Positions 41,218 to 48,997 of a stretch of DNA of 55,829 nucleotides are shown one piece after another (position 1 is the first letter of the stretch; each line of letters begins with the position of its first letter). The stretch spans positions 1 to 55,829 of the forward strand of contig CASEOD010000040.1 of NCBI GenBank assembly GCA_949289445.1, read 5' to 3'. The translations under genes and the position numbers were made by a program. Below the pieces are notes generated by a model. That model searched no databases. It was not told where the DNA came from and was given only the letters and a program-made list of their open reading frames with translations. The DNA is from an uncultured Eubacteriales bacterium. Its GTDB lineage: Bacteria; Bacillota; Clostridia; Peptostreptococcales; Anaerovoracaceae.

Positions 41218-43644
41218 TTAAGTTACACTTTTTCCGGCATAGGTTCTGTAACACAGCCCCGACCACTGGGTGTAATAGGTCTTGCCGTCGATAACTCTGA
41301 CGCCTCGTACCTTATAGTAGTACCTGGTGCCGTTTTCCAGCTCCTTGGTATTCTTGTAGCTTACCGCACTTCCGTCAGCGGTCTTAAAGTAGGTTGTATC
41401 TCCGAAATCATCCTTGTCTGTGGACTTGAAAATCTCATAATAGTCTACTTTATAGCCAGCAGATTTCTCCCAGTTGACTTTGATGTAGCCTTCACCCTGC
41501 TCCGAGCTTGCCTTGATAGTGGTATTCTCCACTCCGTTAATGATTCCCGCATTAGGAATCACGCTGGTTCCGGCATAGGTTCTGTAACACAGCCCCGACC
41601 ACTGGGTGTAATAGGTCTTGCCGTCGATAACTCTGACGCCCCGTACCGTATAGTAGTACCTGGTGCCGTTTTCCAGCTCCTTGGTATTCTTGTAGCTTAC
41701 CGCACTTCCGTCAGCGGTCTTAAAGTAGGCTGTATCTCCGAAATCATCCTTGTCTGTGGACTTGAAAATCTCATAATAGTCTACTTTATAGCCAGCAGAT
41801 TTCTCCCAGTTGACCTTGATGTAGCCTTCACCCTGCTCCGAGCTTGCCTTGATGGTGGTGTTTTCCACTCCGCTGATCAGGTTTTCATTTCCTGAAGGCT
41901 CTTCCGGTTCTTCTGATGATCCTCCGGCATAGGTTCTGTAGCACAGATTGGACCACTGGGTGTAATAGGTCTTGCCGTCGATAACTCTGACGCCCCGTAC
42001 CTTATAGTAGTACCTGGTGCCGTTTTCCAGCTCCTTGGTATTCTTGTAGCTTACCGCACTTCCGTCAGCAGTTTTGAAATAAGCGGTACTGCCGAAATTA
42101 TCCTTGGCTGTGGACTTGAAAATCTCATAGTAGTCCACTTTGTAACCTGCAGATTTCTCCCAGTTGACCTTGATGTAGCCCTCACCCTGCTCTGAGCTTG
42201 CCTTGATAGTGGTGTTTTCCACTCCGCTGATCAGGTTTTCATTTCCTGAAGGCTCTTCCACAATAGATGAATCCTTGTTTACAACGACATAGTAAGTTCT
42301 GCTTGCCAGGCCGGAAGAAGATTTCACCTTGACGGAAATCTTATTCTGTCCTTCTTTCAGTTCTGTTCCGCTGATCGTTACGGTTGCATCAGAAGCATTC
42401 GTCTTAGCAGAAACTGTCACCTTGTCTACAGATTTTCCTACAGTAGTACTTACAGTATGGGTGGATGTAAAGCGATCAAAACTCTTGGTAAAGGAGAGCG
42501 TCTTTCCACCTGCAGTCACAGTGATGCTGTCCAGATATGCGTTATTGTTGCCTGATGTAGGCGGCTGTTTCGATTTGGTTTCCGGCATATCCTGAAATAC
42601 AGGAATCTCAAATTCAAAAGCCTCATTCAGCACTCCGAAATCCTTATAATCTGCCTGCATGATGATAGCCATGGTGGCTGCATTGAATACGTTGGTGGCG
42701 TACTGATAAGTTCCCACGGAAGACAGTCCGTTAAGCACGTTCCACCGTTCATAGTAAAGGCTGTACTGGTTGTTTCCGATGAAATTATCGGCGATATAAA
42801 TTGCGCCGCCTTTTACAGCTTTTTCCAGAGAGTTCCAGGGCCTGAGGTAGGTGGTTCCTTTTCCGTCACTACCTCCTGCAGCAAAAACAAGTCCTTTAGT
42901 CGCTGCACTGCCGTCGGGACTGTCCGATGCGCCAATGTTGTATGTGTTGTAATAACCTTTGTAGGTCTTTCCACCATAAGTAAATTCGTGACCATCGATG
43001 TTAAAGCTGCTGCTGCCCAGTTCAATTCTGGTCTTCGTAGCCAGATAAATGGGACTGATGCTGTATTCCACATTATTGTAGGTCTGCTGTGCCGCTTCCA
43101 TATAATATTTTGAAGCACCGGACGGCAAAGCTGTGGTTTCCAGTATCTTCTTTACAATAGCCTCTGACTGGTAGGAAGGATTGTAGGTATTGGCCTCGAA
43201 CATAAAGATGGATTCCTCATCCAGCCAGTTTCTCGGGTCCATGTAAAACTTTACAGCCGCATCAGAAGCAGATACCCATGTATCTCCGTCTTTAGCAATA
43301 TAATCATGGTTTTCAAAGTCATAGGTTCCCTGTTTTACCGCTTTATAAGCATCCGGGAAATTCCTCGAAATTGTATTGGCATTCTGATTGGCGATCTGTT
43401 TTGCCACCGCCTCATCCCAGGTGTAATCAAGCAGCTTGGCTTTGAATGTCCAGTTGGGATGCGCCTCATGCAGCTTTCTCAATTCCACTTTGTAACTTTC
43501 AGGAAATCCCTGAGCTGTAAGCTGCGCTTCAAAGCTGCTGTCCGCAGCATATGCAACGGTCTCATTAAACTGCAGAACGGCTGAGCAGATCAGAACAGAC
43601 GACAGAAGTATTGCGCCCGCTTTTTTCATTTTTGTCAGTATCAT
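41218..43644 (-). CDS. Secreted glucosaminidase-like cell-wall protein with three FN3 repeats
   Basis: An 808-aa exported protein. Residues 1-34 are a signal peptide ending around VAYAADS. The catalytic part (about 100-350) has the glucosaminidase pattern, FMFEANTYN and SISPIYLATKTRIELG, with Glu in RIELG as a likely acid residue and GYYNTYNIGASDSPDG further on. A cadherin-like beta-sandwich domain follows (about 375-460). Then come three nearly identical fibronectin-III modules, each with KVNWEKSAGYKVDYYEIFKS and RYYYxVRGVRVIDGKTYYTQWS. No sortase LPxTG or anchoring repeats are seen at the C-terminus. The start at 43644 has AGAGG at 6 nt. It follows tdk by 14 bp on the same strand. Confidence 0.88.
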   Translation of the reverse strand: MILTKMKKAGAILLSSVLICSAVLQFNETVAYAADSSFEAQLTAQGFPESYKVELRKLHEAHPNWTFKAKLLDYTWDEAVAKQIANQNANTISRNFPDAYKAVKQGTYDFENHDYIAKDGDTWVSASDAAVKFYMDPRNWLDEESIFMFEANTYNPSYQSEAIVKKILETTALPSGASKYYMEAAQQTYNNVEYSISPIYLATKTRIELGSSSFNIDGHEFTYGGKTYKGYYNTYNIGASDSPDGSAATKGLVFAAGGSDGKGTTYLRPWNSLEKAVKGGAIYIADNFIGNNQYSLYYERWNVLNGLSSVGTYQYATNVFNAATMAIIMQADYKDFGVLNEAFEFEIPVFQDMPETKSKQPPTSGNNNAYLDSITVTAGGKTLSFTKSFDRFTSTHTVSTTVGKSVDKVTVSAKTNASDATVTISGTELKEGQNKISVKVKSSSGLASRTYYVVVNKDSSIVEEPSGNENLISGVENTTIKASSEQGEGYIKVNWEKSAGYKVDYYEIFKSTAKDNFGSTAYFKTADGSAVSYKNTKELENGTRYYYKVRGVRVIDGKTYYTQWSNLCYRTYAGGSSEEPEEPSGNENLISGVENTTIKASSEQGEGYIKVNWEKSAGYKVDYYEIFKSTDKDDFGDTAYFKTADGSAVSYKNTKELENGTRYYYTVRGVRVIDGKTYYTQWSGLCYRTYAGTSVIPNAGIINGVENTTIKASSEQGEGYIKVNWEKSAGYKVDYYEIFKSTDKDDFGDTTYFKTADGSAVSYKNTKELENGTRYYYKVRGVRVIDGKTYYTQWSGLCYRTYAGKSVT
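41234..42225. repeat. Three near-identical 302-bp tandem repeats encoding FN3 modules
   Basis: Units at 41234-41535, 41570-41871 and 41924-42225 are each exactly 302 bp and differ at few positions, many silent. They are separated by short linkers of 34 and 52 bp that vary. They point to recent duplication inside the cell-wall gene and make copy-number change likely. Confidence 0.85.
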
Positions 43645-43658
43645 AAAAAACCTCTATT

Positions 43659-44261
43659 CTACTTATTTTTTTCCTTTCCGTATTCCGGCCCGATTCGGCC
43701 GTCATTATAGTGTTTACGGCAAAGGGATACATACATGTCATTTCCACCGATAAGTACCTGCTGACCCTGTTTGACAAATTTGCCGTCCACAATTCTGGCA
43801 ACCATAGTGGCCTTTCGGCCGCACCAGCAGATTGTCTTGATTTCTTCAATCTTGTCAGCATAAATCAGCATGTAATAGGAACCCTCAAACAGTTCATTTC
43901 TGAAATCATTCTTTAGTCCATAGGCAAGGACGGGAACTTCAAGGCTGTCAACAATCTCTACCAGTTCCTGCACATGATGTTTCTTCAGAAACTGACACTC
44001 ATCGATGAGAACACAGTCAATTCTCTGTTTCTCATTCTCACGCATAAACAGTTCCAGAATATTGGTGTCATCACTGACGGCCATCGCATCTCTTTGTAAA
44101 CCGATTCTGGAAGTTATCACGCCGCTTCCGTATCTGTCATCCACGGCAGGCACCAACGTGAGCACATGTTTTCCCCGCTCCTCATAGTTGTAAGCAACTT
44201 TAATCAGTTCAATCGATTTTCCCGCATTCATTGTACTGTATCTGTAATATAACTGTGCCAT
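43659..44261 (-). CDS. tdk: Thymidine kinase (type II)
   Basis: Salvages thymidine by phosphorylating it to dTMP. The P-loop is [11 protein letters not shown] (about residues 9-19), the Mg-binding aspartate with LIDECQFL follows, and zinc cysteines are CWCGRK and LCRKH. The lasso loop contains [13 protein letters not shown]-type residues ([10 protein letters not shown]). At 200 aa it has the normal length. GGGAGG precedes the ATG and the promoter is at 44295-44323. It heads a unit with the cell-wall protein downstream. Confidence 0.96.
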
Positions 44262-44294
44262 GTAATCCTCCCTTTTTCACCATTGCCATGTTCT

Positions 44295-44323
44295 ATTTTA
44301 TCGAAAAAAAGACATAAAATCAA
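44295..44323 (-). promoter_or_regulatory. Sigma-A type promoter of tdk
   Basis: TTGATT, 17 bp, TAAAAT on the minus strand, ending about 33 bp before the tdk start codon. Confidence 0.7.
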
Positions 44324-44476
44324 TATGATGTAATTGGTAATACAAATTTCACCAAATCACCACATTTCTTCCTTTTCGGTACACAGTCCGAAGAAAAAAA
44401 CAGTATCTTCTATCAGATAAACCGTGAAGAACTCAATCGTATCCTAAAGGATTTGAAAAGTTTCATACAAAATTAA
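44318..44476 (+). pseudogene. Remnant of a helix-turn-helix (ArsR-like) regulator gene
   Basis: An open stretch of 52 codons on the plus strand has no start codon and no ribosome site. Its last part reads NSIFYQINREELNRILKDL and SFIQN, which resembles the end of an ArsR-type winged helix (beta-wing followed by a dimerisation helix). It is probably the 3' remnant of a lost gene, ending at the bidirectional hairpin. The family link rests on pattern memory and is tentative. Confidence 0.35.
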
Positions 44477-44525
44477 AAAGATTTGAATCCAGCAAAAACC
44501 ATATGGCAGATTCAAATCTTTTTTT
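44475..44525. terminator. Bidirectional terminator
   Basis: Arms AAAAAGATTTGAATC and complement (left 44475-44489, right 44509-44523) enclose a 19-nt loop with T-runs outside on both strands. On minus it ends transcripts from the histidine kinase region and from the small promoter at 44571-44599. Confidence 0.88.
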
Positions 44526-44564
44526 ATTTTCAGTCCATCCCAAAACCTTTATTATCTTTTCCCC
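44475..44564 (-). ncRNA. Candidate LytTR-controlled small RNA
   Basis: A promoter (TTGCAT, 17 bp, TATATT) with a LytTR-type operator directs minus-strand transcription from about 44564. The transcript would reach the terminator at 44525-44475 after about 90 nt. The only ATG in between gives a two-codon frame, so no peptide is encoded. The start site is inferred from the -10 position; no known RNA family is recognised. Confidence 0.4.
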
Positions 44565-44570
44565 GTTTCC

Positions 44571-44639
44571 AATATACCTCTATATTTGGACAAATGCAAT
44601 CGATTTGCGGCCAGCGGTTCTTTTTTGCGATAAGTGGTC
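44571..44639 (-). promoter_or_regulatory. LytTR-type operator and promoter downstream of the kinase gene
   Basis: The operator at 44606-44639 contains GACC and AACCG half-sites separated by TTATCGCAAAAAA; it is followed after exactly 6 bp by TTGCAT, 17 bp and TATATT. The same layout occurs at 46822-46890. Two direct half-sites about 21 bp apart are the usual target of LytTR response regulators. Confidence 0.55.
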
Positions 44640-44665
44640 ACAATCCTGAAAGAGTTGGCGAAATC

Positions 44666-45970
44666 TTACGATTCATCTTTTATTTCACAGGGCAGAATAA
44701 CAAAAGTAAGGACAGAATCCTTTTCTTCATTTATCCAGAAAACCATGCCGCCGTTTCTCTCTGCAGCTTCTTTCATGTTCCTCGTTCCTATGCCGTGATT
44801 TTCATGATCGGGATTTCTGCTTGCCGGGCATCCTTCTTTTATGTTTACAGGATTTGAAGTCGGGTTTCTCATTTCAAAAAACAGATAATGCTCTTCTCTT
44901 CTGATTTTCAGACTGATCTCTTTTTTCCGGTCTCCCCGGTATTTTCTTACGGCATCAAAAGCATTTTCAAATGCATTGGACAGAATCACACAGAGATCAA
45001 CCTGCGGCACGTTCAGCATGCCGTCAATCTTTCCGCTGACAGAAAAACCGATTCCCGCTTTTTTGCACAATCCGTAATACTGATTTACAATTGCATCGCA
45101 GATCTGATTGTTCGTGCTGAGAAAACTGAATCCCTCACTGACTGTTCCCAAACCATTTATATATTCCTCTACTTCCGCAAATCGTCCTTCCCGTGACAGA
45201 CTCTGCAGAACGCTGATATGCTTATTAAAATCATGACGGAACTTTCGCAGTTCCATATCTCGTTCCCCTATCAGTCTGTACTGTTCCGTCTGTCCTGCAA
45301 TACATTTTTTATTAAAACCGATTTCCTTCCTCAGTTCTCTCTTCTGATTGCTGTTTACACACAGCAGAACAAGAATAGTCAAGGTAAATATTCCGATGAC
45401 TCCGTTTTTTGACATGTGAATGGCGGAAATAATCTGTACTGTATTTCCATCAATTTCACCGGAATAACCGGACTCCAGCTGAAGAATATACATGATGACA
45501 AAAATAGGAACAAATAACAGGGGATTCAGGCTTTGAAGACAGTTCCATACCTTCCTTCTATGGGTCCTGACCATCGCTCCTATTACTGACAGAAAAGAAA
45601 GTACAATCACCAGAGATAAAATATGGCAGAACTCATAATCCACCTCTGCCACCAGGCCGTCCTTTACGATAATATCTATTCCCAGAACCAAATTGCAGAC
45701 AATACCCAAAACCTCATATAGCACAGCACTGATTCCGACAACAGAACCTAATCTTCCGCGAAAAACAGCTGCCGAAACAGCTATATACATCAACAATCCT
45801 GTCTGCAAATATACGGGATGCAGACAGTTATCTGCGAAATGCAGTCCGACCCAGATAACACATAAAGAAAAGCCTAAAACAACAAGGCCGCGGTTTTTCC
45901 TGAACTCGCAGCCCAATACAAATATGAACATGATAAACAAATCGATGAGTTGTATCACAGATGCAGCCAT
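44666..45970 (-). CDS. GHKL sensor histidine kinase (AgrC-like)
   Basis: A 434-aa membrane kinase. Six to seven hydrophobic segments fill residues 1-205, as in AgrC-type peptide sensors. The phosphoacceptor region is KFRHDFNKHISVL (His about 246), the ATP-binding N-box is ILSNAFENAFDAV and the G-box is NHGIGTRNMKEAAER. The C-terminus ends in VLTFVILP. GAGGGAG precedes the ATG. It follows the LytTR regulator by 12 bp. No agrB or agrD gene is adjacent, so the signal is unknown and may not be a peptide made here. Confidence 0.92.
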   Translation of the reverse strand: MAASVIQLIDLFIMFIFVLGCEFRKNRGLVVLGFSLCVIWVGLHFADNCLHPVYLQTGLLMYIAVSAAVFRGRLGSVVGISAVLYEVLGIVCNLVLGIDIIVKDGLVAEVDYEFCHILSLVIVLSFLSVIGAMVRTHRRKVWNCLQSLNPLLFVPIFVIMYILQLESGYSGEIDGNTVQIISAIHMSKNGVIGIFTLTILVLLCVNSNQKRELRKEIGFNKKCIAGQTEQYRLIGERDMELRKFRHDFNKHISVLQSLSREGRFAEVEEYINGLGTVSEGFSFLSTNNQICDAIVNQYYGLCKKAGIGFSVSGKIDGMLNVPQVDLCVILSNAFENAFDAVRKYRGDRKKEISLKIRREEHYLFFEMRNPTSNPVNIKEGCPASRNPDHENHGIGTRNMKEAAERNGGMVFWINEEKDSVLTFVILPCEIKDES

Positions 45971-45982
45971 TTCCTGCTCCCT

Positions 45983-46699
45983 CTACACATATTTGGCGAT
46001 TCTGCTCAGGTAGCATAAATACTGCTGATAGCAATCTTTTTTTCGCCGCCTGCTGACACGAAGACAAATCGGCTCTCCGTCTTTATCCGGTTTCTTCAGA
46101 ATAATCCTGTCATCCCGAAAAGATTTAATATGACGGCTGCTGACAATACAGCTTTTTTCAATGCGAAGAAACCCCTGTTCTTTTAATTCTTCTTCCCATT
46201 GATCCAATGACTTTCTTCCGCCGTCTTCAGAATCCCCGGATGCAAGATACAGCACTGTATACCCTCTGTCCGCATGAATTCTGATAATATCCCCCGTGTT
46301 TATCCATCTGCCATGAGGCAGTTCTATCTCCCTGTCAAGATTCAAATGCAAGATCGCCAGGTCCAGCATATCCTCAAGCTGGCGAGGATCGACAGGTTTT
46401 AACAGAAAACCGATGACATTACGGTTAAAAGCTTTTGACATGACATCTGCGTATCTGGTCGCAAAAATGATCAAAGGACAGTCAGTTTCCATGGCAAGCT
46501 GGTCTTTCAGCGTTATCCCGTCAAGTTCAGGCATCTCAACATCCAGTATCAGAATATCCGTCTGACCTGCCCTGACGGAAAACGGATCTGTCACAGCAGT
46601 TACTTCTGCCTCATACCGATGTTCTGCGAGATATGCTTCGCATAACTGTTCTAGCTCCCGCGCATCTGATAGACTGTCATCGCAAACGGTAATCTTCAT
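45983..46699 (-). CDS. LytTR-family response regulator (AgrA-like)
   Basis: A 238-aa DNA-binding regulator. The receiver domain (1-125) has acidic Asp7-Asp8, phosphoacceptor Asp53 in LILDVEMPELDG, and Lys in FLLKPVD. The LytTR domain (about 135-235) shows IIRIHADRGYTVLY, FLRIEKSCIVSSRHIKSF and a basic C-terminus with VSRRRKKDCYQQY. AGGAGG precedes the ATG. Two promoters lie upstream: a near one at 46734-46762 without an operator and a far one at 46822-46850 with a LytTR operator, suggesting positive autoregulation. Confidence 0.93.
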   Translation of the reverse strand: MKITVCDDSLSDARELEQLCEAYLAEHRYEAEVTAVTDPFSVRAGQTDILILDVEMPELDGITLKDQLAMETDCPLIIFATRYADVMSKAFNRNVIGFLLKPVDPRQLEDMLDLAILHLNLDREIELPHGRWINTGDIIRIHADRGYTVLYLASGDSEDGGRKSLDQWEEELKEQGFLRIEKSCIVSSRHIKSFRDDRIILKKPDKDGEPICLRVSRRRKKDCYQQYLCYLSRIAKYV

Positions 46700-46733
46700 C
46701 TCTTCCTCCTGAATACCCTAGATTTCAGATATA

Positions 46734-46762
46734 AGTATATCACAAAGTATTCAGGATGTCAC
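46734..46762 (-). promoter_or_regulatory. Operator-free promoter P2 of the two-component operon
   Basis: GTGACA, 17 bp, TATACT on the minus strand; five of six -35 bases match. The transcript would start near 46727, 28 nt before the regulator ATG. Confidence 0.65.
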
Positions 46763-46821
46763 TTGCGGCTATGACTCACAATTCAAAAATCTCAATTCCC
46801 AATCCCCCTCGGATTATCTCC

Positions 46822-46890
46822 AGTATATCCTCATGACAAAGAAAAGACAACAAAAATGCGGCGAACGGTCATTTTTTGCGATAAACGGTC
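46822..46890 (-). promoter_or_regulatory. LytTR-type operator and promoter P1 of the two-component operon
   Basis: The operator (46857-46890) has two ACCGT half-sites about 20-21 bp apart with TTATCGCAAAAAA between them. After exactly 6 bp come TTGTCT, 17 bp and TATACT. The spacing is identical to that of the copy at 44571-44639, and 26 of 34 operator positions agree by eye. Confidence 0.65.
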
Positions 46891-46898
46891 TTTTACGC

Positions 46899-46932
46899 AA
46901 AAAACTGTTCGCGGATGTTCCCCTGCGAACAG
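46899..46932 (-). terminator. Intrinsic terminator of the CmpB-like gene
   Basis: CTGTTCGC arms with a 12-nt loop (46905-46932) followed by TTTTTT on the minus strand, 18 bp after the stop at 46951. It insulates the two-component operon from upstream read-through. Confidence 0.85.
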
Positions 46933-46950
46933 CTATATTTCCAGCCTATT

Positions 46951-47484
46951 TTATTTTACCAGATAGCAGACAACATCAACTGCAAAGACAACCCCCATGA
47001 TACCGGTTATCGCATTGAAAGTTCCGGGTTTTAACTTCTCACTTATCTTCACAAAGACAGGCTGCAGCACATACAGGAAGATCATTCCGCCAATACCGAA
47101 ACGGATACTCGGGTTCAAAGCGATCCGTCCCTGAAAATTAAAGGCAAATCTGGTGTAATCCCACATCCAGTCTCCTGTGGTGAATTCCATAATATAGCTT
47201 CCAATCAGTTCAGTCACCGTGGTAACGATTACCACACCCAGAAAGACAAGTAGCGGTGTAACCGATATGCCGCCGATACAGATCCTTTTTTTCTGCAGCC
47301 AGCCGAGAGAAAATATCAGTATCAGCGCACCTACACCGTAAATTACACAGTAGGGGCCAAAAAGAACGCCTCTGTTGGAAAACCCCCACCGGTAGATTAC
47401 CACTTCTAAAAACACTTCATACACCCATCCGATGATCGAGTACAGCATGAAATAGAAAAAGTATTTTTGTATCTTCTGTATCAT
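46951..47484 (-). CDS. CmpB-like (DUF1113) membrane protein
   Basis: A 177-aa polytopic membrane protein with five predicted helices. The opening YFFYFMLYSIIGWVYEV and RGVLFGPYCVIYGVGA are hallmarks of the family labelled putative ABC transporter permease (CmpB). SYIMEFTTGDWMWDY is the conserved central loop. No transport partner is nearby and function is not established. The start at 47484 has GGGAGAAGG in front; a GTG at 47511 is an alternative. It follows xerD by 29 bp on the same strand. Confidence 0.85.
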   Translation of the reverse strand: MIQKIQKYFFYFMLYSIIGWVYEVFLEVVIYRWGFSNRGVLFGPYCVIYGVGALILIFSLGWLQKKRICIGGISVTPLLVFLGVVIVTTVTELIGSYIMEFTTGDWMWDYTRFAFNFQGRIALNPSIRFGIGGMIFLYVLQPVFVKISEKLKPGTFNAITGIMGVVFAVDVVCYLVK

Positions 47485-47513
47485 ATCCTTCTCCCTAAAA
47501 TTAAAATTCACTC

Positions 47514-48404
47514 TTATGCTCTCGGATGTGTTCTGTCATAAACATCCTTGATTCGATTTTTGGTCACAGAAAGATAAATCTGTGTTGCCATGATGTCCTC
47601 GTGACCCATCAGTTCCTGCAGACTCTTAAGGTCTGCTCCGTTCTGCACCATATGTACCGCAAAAGATGTTCTTAAAATATGCGGTGTCAGCTTCTGCTCC
47701 AGTCCTACCTGTCTGCCGTACTGTTTCATCAGTTTCCACAAACCCTGTCTGGAAAATGCCTCGCCCTGATAATTGACAAAAAGAGGACTGTTCGGCTCTT
47801 CTGAACCTTTTTCCCGCATCAGATACAGACGGCTGTTGAGAATATAGCTGTCCAAAGCCCTTCTTGCCATAGTTCCCATAGGCACGATTCTGGCTCTTCC
47901 ATGGGCTCCGCTGCAGGTAATAAACCCCATACGCAGATTCACATCGGCCATTTTCAGTTCAATGATTTCGCTTACTCTGAGACCCGTGGCATACATCACC
48001 TCAAGAATTGCTCTGTCCCGCATCCCTTTGACTGAATTATCCGGCGCTTCCAGAAGTTTTTCCACTTCTTCAACAGTAAGGTAGGCCAGCTCTTTCTTTT
48101 CAATGCGGGGAGCTTTTATACCGTCCACAGGATTTACAGACGTAAACCCCTGTTTCACAAGAAATTTATAGAAAGTCCGCAGAGATGACAGTTTCCGGTT
48201 TGCCGTTGACCTGGATTTTCCGCTGTTTTTCAGCTCCATAAGATAGGCCGCCGCATCCGCTTCCGATGCCTCATGGAGCGCTCCCGTTCCTCTCCTGTTC
48301 AAAAACTTTTCAAAAGCTCTGATATCCCTTTCATAGGCATCACAGGTATTGTCAGCTGTCTTCTTTTCTTCTTTCATATATGTAATAAAACCATAAAGCT
48401 CCAT
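47514..48404 (-). CDS. xerD: Tyrosine recombinase XerD
   Basis: Site-specific recombinase that resolves chromosome dimers at dif. The N-terminal core-binding domain (1-100) is followed by the catalytic domain with Arg in ATGLRVSEI, HILRTSF (HxxR), GHEDIMATQIYLSV with His and nucleophile Tyr. At the beta-hairpin, where XerD usually has GKGxKER with an active-site Lys, this protein reads CSGAHGRARIVPM and appears to lack that Lys. The length (296 aa) is normal. GGAG precedes the ATG at 6 nt. It diverges from spoIIM, an arrangement known near ripX in B. subtilis. Confidence 0.92.
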   Translation of the reverse strand: MELYGFITYMKEEKKTADNTCDAYERDIRAFEKFLNRRGTGALHEASEADAAAYLMELKNSGKSRSTANRKLSSLRTFYKFLVKQGFTSVNPVDGIKAPRIEKKELAYLTVEEVEKLLEAPDNSVKGMRDRAILEVMYATGLRVSEIIELKMADVNLRMGFITCSGAHGRARIVPMGTMARRALDSYILNSRLYLMREKGSEEPNSPLFVNYQGEAFSRQGLWKLMKQYGRQVGLEQKLTPHILRTSFAVHMVQNGADLKSLQELMGHEDIMATQIYLSVTKNRIKDVYDRTHPRA

Positions 48405-48425
48405 AAAATTCTCCGTCCATTCCTA

Positions 48426-48453
48426 TCATATTTCTCTATAAACAACATACCTT
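48426..48453 (+). promoter_or_regulatory. Sigma-E-like promoter of spoIIM
   Basis: TCATATT, 13 bp, CATACCTT on the plus strand, close to the sigma-E pattern (KMATATT, 13-15 bp, CATACAWT). It lies 22 bp before the start codon. B. subtilis spoIIM is transcribed by sigma-E. Confidence 0.55.
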
Positions 48454-48475
48454 ACATAGAAAGGGGAGGTTGTCT

Positions 48476-48997
48476 ATGAGTCAAAAAATAAGTTTTATTT
48501 TCTTAATTCTCTTAGTGATCAGTTTTTCGGCAGGTATTTTCACTGAAATCACCATCACACCTGCCGGCGCGGTCTCGTCACTGCTTCCTGCCATGGTTTC
48601 CGGTATTTTAGATTACATAAAAAACGATATTGTTACCGTAGCTGCCGCCATGATATTTTCCGCAAGTGTTCTGCTTCTGCCCTTTGTGCCTCTGATGGTG
48701 ATTGGAAAAGTTTTTTCACTGGGCTTCTCTTCCGCCTATATTCTATCCTCATCCTCGGAAAAAGCACTGGGCATTATCATGGCCGCTCTGCTTCCACGGG
48801 GAATCTTCAAACTGCCGGCTTACATTGCGCTGACGCTCATTTCCATAGACATGGCAATCTTCATCAGAAACCACTATCAGAATCCTCAGGCCCTGCTCCA
48901 CGGCGCGCCTAAGCATCTTCTTCGATTTCTCTTCTGTTTTCTGGCGCTCGCTGCTTCCAGCATACTGGAAGTTTTCCTTCTGAAAGGAGTCCTTTGA
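48476..48997 (+). CDS. spoIIM: Stage II sporulation protein M
   Basis: Mother-cell membrane protein that works with SpoIID and SpoIIP in septal peptidoglycan thinning during engulfment. The 173-aa sequence has about five membrane helices; FSAGIFTEI near the start and LLPRGIFKLPAYIALTL in the middle (a DUF95-type signature, GxxELP-like) support the family. The start at 48476 follows GGGGAGG at 6 nt; an upstream in-frame TTG at 48470 is less likely. Its last 89 bp overlap the end of the convergent nudix gene, so both genes share coding DNA there. Confidence 0.87.
   Translation: MSQKISFIFLILLVISFSAGIFTEITITPAGAVSSLLPAMVSGILDYIKNDIVTVAAAMIFSASVLLLPFVPLMVIGKVFSLGFSSAYILSSSSEKALGIIMAALLPRGIFKLPAYIALTLISIDMAIFIRNHYQNPQALLHGAPKHLLRFLFCFLALAASSILEVFLLKGVL

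Follow-up and report, generated by a model that had tools for sequence, protein, structure and literature searches.

The operon and its two promoter modules

The window analysed here is the 55,829-nt contig CASEOD010000040.1 (GenBank assembly GCA_949289445.1) of an uncultured Eubacteriales bacterium of the family Anaerovoracaceae, and its minus strand carries a LytTR two-component operon bracketed by two matched promoter modules. The operon encodes a response regulator of 238 residues with receiver and LytTR domains (45983..46699; Pfam PF00072 and PF04397 above cut-off) and a membrane histidine kinase of 434 residues with a GHKL domain (44666..45970; PF14501 above cut-off), whose hydrophobic stretches lie within its first ~200 residues. 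Resemblance of the kinase to the NCBIfam AgrC model is weak (25.9 bits, E 5.1e-6, far under the cut-off of 500). The locus thus presents a receiver-LytTR regulator, an adjoining membrane kinase and tandem direct repeats just before a -35 element, the features by which LytTR two-component systems are recognized.

Module 1 (P1; minus strand, 46889-46822), the predicted autoregulated promoter of the regulator-kinase operon, consists of tandem LytTR half-sites at 46889-46877 and 46869-46857, a -35 element TTGTCT (46850-46845) and a -10 element TATACT (46827-46822). Module 2 (minus strand, 44638-44571) has its half-sites at 44638-44626 and 44618-44606, followed by TTGCAT (44599-44594) and TATATT (44576-44571); it is predicted to be an output promoter, and its usual target was not found. 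In both modules 13-bp half-sites of the form ACCrnTnnnCnnA recur with a period of 20 bp, the second half-site is 6 bp from the -35 element, and the spacer is 17 bp. A single ungapped register aligns the two modules with 58 of 111 bases identical. This comparison and our reading of the minus strand confirm the positions and the matched layout described in an earlier, sequence-only reading of the window.

The window's genome is a draft of 2.14 Mb in 162 contigs, 84.8% complete with 3.1% contamination. Within it, TTATCGCAAAAAA occurs with zero mismatches solely at the two modules; with one mismatch allowed there are 20 sites in total, compared to 10 in a reversed control. A composite operator pattern with at most three mismatches gives two genome matches, both at the modules, and none in the reversed control. 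A scoring matrix built from 15 modules of other loci, none of them from the window, gives 47.1 for module 1 and 38.3 for module 2; the next best position of the window on either strand scores 0.7 (background over window positions: mean -58.6, sd 13.4). The paired modules are real and far from chance. One result counts against this observation: in a generic sigma-70 scan, module 1 is listed with its promoter (9/12) and module 2 is omitted, whose -35 element matches TTGACA at only 3 of 6 positions. Such a weak element may fit what the -35 of an activator-dependent promoter can look like.

A further site, P2 (minus strand, 46734..46762; GTGACA-17-TATACT with TG before the -10), is located in the interval from module 1 to the regulator gene and is a predicted basal promoter of the operon that looks unregulated. 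It is the best among 19 promoter-like sites in 43500-48500, where shuffled sequences give 10.3. A -10-like hexamer stands at the equivalent place in all six relatives' leaders of at least 140 bp that were examined and in neither of two short ones, a count made without a shuffled control.

Recurrence of the cassette in relatives

The regulator has 18 matches at E<=1e-30 in 11 of 349 genomes of the family, the window's genome included, and two additional loci (G292, G099) were reached through the S1 family described below, giving 20 regulator loci. By one set of criteria, 9 of these 20 loci, belonging to three genera, have one module ahead of the regulator gene and another further downstream: the window (G000), three loci of G006 (C21, C38, C65), G007:C57, G011:C25, G340, G338 and G099. 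Because the half-site form was derived from the same loci, this fraction is descriptive and not an independent test; the opposite-strand and reversed-sequence controls, with no match in 141,867 bases, are independent. In four loci a module was found only after the regulator gene (G009, G011:C45 with a period of 21, G098, G007:C55) and in G097 only upstream. G011:C22 has an upstream module plus an extra module 973 bp ahead of its regulator gene, and no module was found in G003:C40, G006:C49, G003:C4, G001 and G292, although a degenerate one was seen separately in G003:C4. Contig ends cut G003:C40, G007:C55, G338 and G097.

Within a locus, the two operators have 27-33 of 33 bases in common (mean 30, nine loci), compared to a mean of 20.8 and a maximum of 31 for operators of different loci (121 comparisons, excluding G340 against G338, the module with period 21 and two modules of unclear place). 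An operator's own partner is the best or tied best match in eight of the nine loci, G007:C57 being the exception; for the upstream operator of the window, its own partner ties with that of G099. Since operators agree more within than between loci, each regulator probably reads both operators of its own pair. Of the nine pairs, that of the window shows the lowest agreement (27). A matrix made without the window's locus scores module 2 at 35.7, tied seventh lowest of 25, and module 1 at 49.2. These values are compatible with relaxed selection and no proof of it.

The gene behind the downstream module

In all eight paired loci outside the window, the gene behind the downstream module belongs to one family, which we call S1. 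The gene begins 102-132 bp downstream of the module's first base and encodes about 244-278 residues with a start that resembles a signal peptide by eye and a conserved region, WKDYGNRYF, in most rows. Examples, all on the minus strand of their loci, are L057:1979-2800, L062:270-1064 and L060:1663-2472; the G338 contig ends inside S1. The family has no Pfam match above cut-off (one chance-level match, E 0.12), no NCBIfam match and no PDB relative, and none was found in viral contigs with a profile or in plasmids and phages with a single S1 protein as query. At E<=1e-3, S1 is present in 26 of the 349 family genomes, 12 of these at E<=1e-10; at the latter threshold it occurs in 8 of 393 order-wide genomes, all eight in the window's family.

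Four further downstream modules precede a broken S1 (G007:C55) or other frames (G098, G009 and G011:C45), which start like exported or membrane proteins. The downstream module is conserved, contrary to the outcome that the sequence-only reading had named as refuting its proposal, and what follows the module is not conserved. S1 looks damaged in G007:C55 and G003:C4, and G009 is without kinase and S1 in the data searched, which suggests that cassettes of this kind decay.

The G009 locus (L167:3231-4690, contig C20) keeps the regulator and a downstream module. No kinase match was found in the piece read, S1 was found neither there nor in the genome, and the cassette seems to be decaying.

The missing target and the kinase-tdk join

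S1 was not found in the window's genome at its 84.8% completeness, nor is there a trace of it in the window, where tblastn over the whole length with S1, S2 and S3 queries gave six matches, the best at E 0.45. Behind the kinase, the next gene on the same strand is instead the thymidine kinase gene tdk (minus strand, 43659..44261; PF00265), which is present in 10 of 12 other genomes of the genus at 87-93% identity. In six of these ten relatives a tRNA array begins no more than ~175 bp upstream of tdk, and in two more at ~1.6 and 3.4 kb; in the remaining two none is on the piece read. The window has no tRNA. Upstream of the operon, it carries genes for a CmpB-family membrane protein and a tyrosine recombinase, and neither these nor the kinase and regulator have a match near tdk in the pieces read from the ten relatives. 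As the neighbours of tdk differ in relatives, either the kinase-tdk join occurs in this genome alone among those compared, or it stems from an assembly error; it looks rearranged, unless it is misassembled.

In the case of a misassembly, cassette and tdk region would have been falsely linked in the contig, and the real genome would keep S1 behind module 2. The draft state of the assembly allows for this, and the join coincides with the break in the relatives' gene order. However, kinase, module 2, hairpin and tdk are continuous without an N gap, and S1 was found on no other contig, so that we consider an artefact improbable, if worth keeping in view.

We estimate a probability of roughly three in four that the locus is a LytTR two-component cassette that lost its output gene; assignment to the LytTR two-component kind with loss of the output is the most likely account. 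The basal promoter P2 would provide some regulator and kinase. Once the kinase is triggered, phosphorylated regulator would bind the tandem half-sites and aid RNA polymerase in starting at P1, as positive feedback, and at module 2, as output. In relatives, module 2 would drive S1, an undescribed family of putative secreted proteins. Here S1 appears to be gone and tdk stands behind the kinase; module 2 still looks as if it could fire, and would yield only an RNA of ~90 nt made of leader and terminator. Comparison between genomes contributes to this account the recurrence of paired modules, the likeness of operators within loci, the presence of S1 elsewhere, the failure to find it here and the differing neighbours of tdk, which together point to a lost target; binding, activation, phosphorylation and loss as the direction of change are what we infer.

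Several observations weigh against a lost output gene. The nearest regulators compared are only ~36-44% identical to that of the window, and no near relative whose locus is intact is among them. Eleven of the 20 loci fail to show the pair of modules at the criteria used, some due to contig ends. S1 occurs in G267, G163, G034 and G069 without a regulator or kinase match in the 4-8.5 kb read; it can exist outside the cassette and is not tied to it everywhere. In a genome of 162 contigs and 84.8% completeness, S1 could be unassembled or the join false. Finally, the layout of module 2 is kept, which is unexpected after a long-past loss.

The predicted 90-nt RNA

A long hairpin with a T-run (minus strand, 44475..44523) probably ends transcription of the kinase operon as well as that from module 2. 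It fits the claim of a terminator about 90 nt downstream of the second module, even though a simple terminator scan omits it, the loop being long and the G-C pairs near the stem base few. With a start placed ~7 nt past the -10 element, sequence and fold predict a transcript of ~90 nt (minus strand, 44475..44564). The terminator stem makes up most of its predicted fold (-20.8 kcal/mol, z -3.18). That no open reading frame lies in between is correct for ATG frames of at least 20 residues and does not extend to TTG frames, of which there are two, of 26 (44543-44463) and 23 residues (44515-44444). We rejected a coding role for the 90 nt, as these TTG frames are the only ones and cross the hairpin to stop past the T-run.

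No Rfam family matches the window above its gathering score; a search of 44400-44700 with E up to 1 gave six sub-threshold matches, five of them over the hairpin, with a best E of 0.0081. In a search of 60 other genomes, the region 44262-44580 matched only 75 bases of the tdk leader in G011 and a stretch of 48 bases in G055. The latter has no recognizable shared gene around it and was treated as chance.

The ~90-nt RNA may exist as a transcript. It carries no sign of conservation or function, most likely consists of a lost target's leader joined to a terminator, and is presumably without function. The sequence-only reading had instead proposed that the regulator activates its own operon together with a small RNA, in the manner of staphylococcal RNAIII. 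Its first part, a regulator driving its own operon and a second output, gains support from the eight other paired loci and from the likeness of operators within loci. A small RNA as that output finds no support in the comparison, given the S1 gene in eight of eight other paired loci and a 90-nt stretch without counterpart in the 60 genomes.

A functional regulatory RNA, forming an Agr-like RNA arm and perhaps co-opted after the loss of S1, nevertheless deserves consideration, since the module layout is intact, the transcript would end in a stable hairpin (z -3.18), and the related regulators VirR and AgrA drive regulatory RNAs, as stated in PMC2838878 and PMC4227749. Against it stand the protein gene that forms the output in all eight other paired loci, the lack of a counterpart in 60 genomes and of an Rfam match above gathering score, and a fold that is mostly terminator stem. 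On balance, the small-RNA reading is unlikely.

Module 2 might alternatively drive tdk by read-through of the hairpin, tdk being the next gene on the same strand, ~310 bp past the -10 element. This is highly improbable, because a strong hairpin and T-run lie in between and tdk has its own promoter-like site in the promoter scan (minus strand, 44323-44295) and a leader like that of G011 (76% over 75 bases).

Relation to agr and other LytTR systems

The window's genome, at 84.8% completeness, has no match to AgrB (PF04647). Neither was AgrB found in six other regulator-bearing genomes of the genus (G001, 82% complete; G003, 73%; G006, G007, G009 and G011). It is present in 2 of 13 genus genomes, G004 and G010, neither of which has the regulator, and 14 control genomes gave one match, below cut-off. 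Of the earlier statement that no agrBD gene is present, the part on AgrB stands; AgrD was not recognized in 43500-48500, where no search was aimed at it. The staphylococcal agr system (PMC4227749) shares with this locus a LytTR regulator, a kinase to which ours is weakly similar (AgrC), and direct-repeat promoters for its own operon and an output, and there AgrA drives a regulatory RNA. The spacers at agr P2 and P3 are 18 and 20 bp in the same source, in contrast to 17 bp here. The absence of AgrB from the genomes searched and a protein gene as the usual output in relatives set the present system further apart. The comparison with RNAIII is reasonable as a mechanism, but the comparative evidence points to a lost protein output.

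VirSR of Clostridium perfringens similarly uses paired imperfect direct repeats at a fixed place just before the -35 element, and PMC2838878 names secreted proteins and regulatory RNAs among its targets. The VirSR targets described there are many and scattered, whereas we found two modules genome-wide, both flanking the operon. The usual output in our relatives, S1, is also a family without Pfam or NCBIfam match.

HdrRM, BrsRM and their relatives (PMC6193735) have direct repeats before the -35 element of their own operon and positive feedback. The repeats of these LytTR Regulatory Systems lie mostly 12 bp apart, with a minority at 11 or 13, and mostly 10 bp before the -35; the corresponding values here are 11 and 10. 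The BrsR repeat ACCACTTAT given in that source is identical to the first nine bases of module 2. In contrast to the pairing of a regulator with a membrane inhibitor protein described there, our locus has a partner with a GHKL domain and a regulator with a receiver domain.

Bacteriocin-type LytTR circuits such as blp, pln and sil are also similar, their regulator-kinase operon and adjoining output operons sharing one set of direct repeats. Unlike in those circuits, no peptide precursor, transporter or bacteriocin gene was recognized at this locus.

The analysis suggests that what appears to be an orphan small-RNA promoter can be left over from a lost target, something visible only through comparison. 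The recurring cassette would comprise a regulator, a kinase, matched promoters and a putative secreted S1 family without library match at cut-off, and with operators specific to each locus and sensor halves that differ, it is well suited to the study of how such systems diversify. In the LytTR direct-repeat literature, as judged from titles and the openings of abstracts, we recognized no paper describing the cassette, which is not a claim that it is unpublished.

The kinase sensor half

The sibling kinases of G340 (L162:3331-4611) and G338 (L163:431-1705, minus strand) differ in one part of their length. The two genomes agree at 99% in the regulator and at 98% in the first 95 residues of S1; the kinases share 45% identity over residues 1-215 and 95% thereafter, the divergent part extending from about residue 60 to about 224. 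In other pairs the contrast is weaker, with sensor against rest at 74% against 93% (G011:C25 and G007:C55), 78% against 81%, 66% against 79% and 33% against 58%. The pattern, which resembles the group polymorphism of agrC, suggests that the sensor half may be exchanged between kinases.

We offer, as a speculation in which we place little confidence, that the cassette is an AgrB-less signalling and secretion unit, in which each locus has its own operator type, sensor and secreted S1, and the exchangeable sensor half of the adjoining kinase responds to S1, whole or in part, as its cue. Strains would then sort into agr-like signalling groups, and the window would represent a 'listener' that keeps sensor and switch and has lost signal and output.

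Further features

A 52-codon open stretch on the plus strand (44318..44476, from translation) stops just short of the hairpin. It has no Pfam or NCBIfam match, and its best PDB match is at E 0.18. Its product looks like the C-terminus of an ArsR-type protein, a likeness that no library confirmed. The stretch could be what remains of the end of a lost gene, for which the hairpin would formerly have served as terminator.

A generic receiver-motif scan of the genome contigs returned mostly distant regulators among the matches listed; only the best locus, L082, proved useful, and it matches the G338 contig in length and ORFs. The extra module of G011:C22 (L063, minus strand, 1893 in reversed coordinates) is of another operator type; the regulator gene there has no adjoining kinase match, and behind the module stand a short inverted repeat and two small frames of membrane-like character. 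In G006:C38 (L169:5198-6696), two other genes lie between the kinase and the downstream module, which look like an AbiE-type toxin-antitoxin pair. A high-scoring module in G006:C80 (L166:330-397) sits close to the end of its contig. The 8 kb read there contain no match to regulator, kinase or S1, and the next frame of more than 100 residues begins ~390 bp after it.

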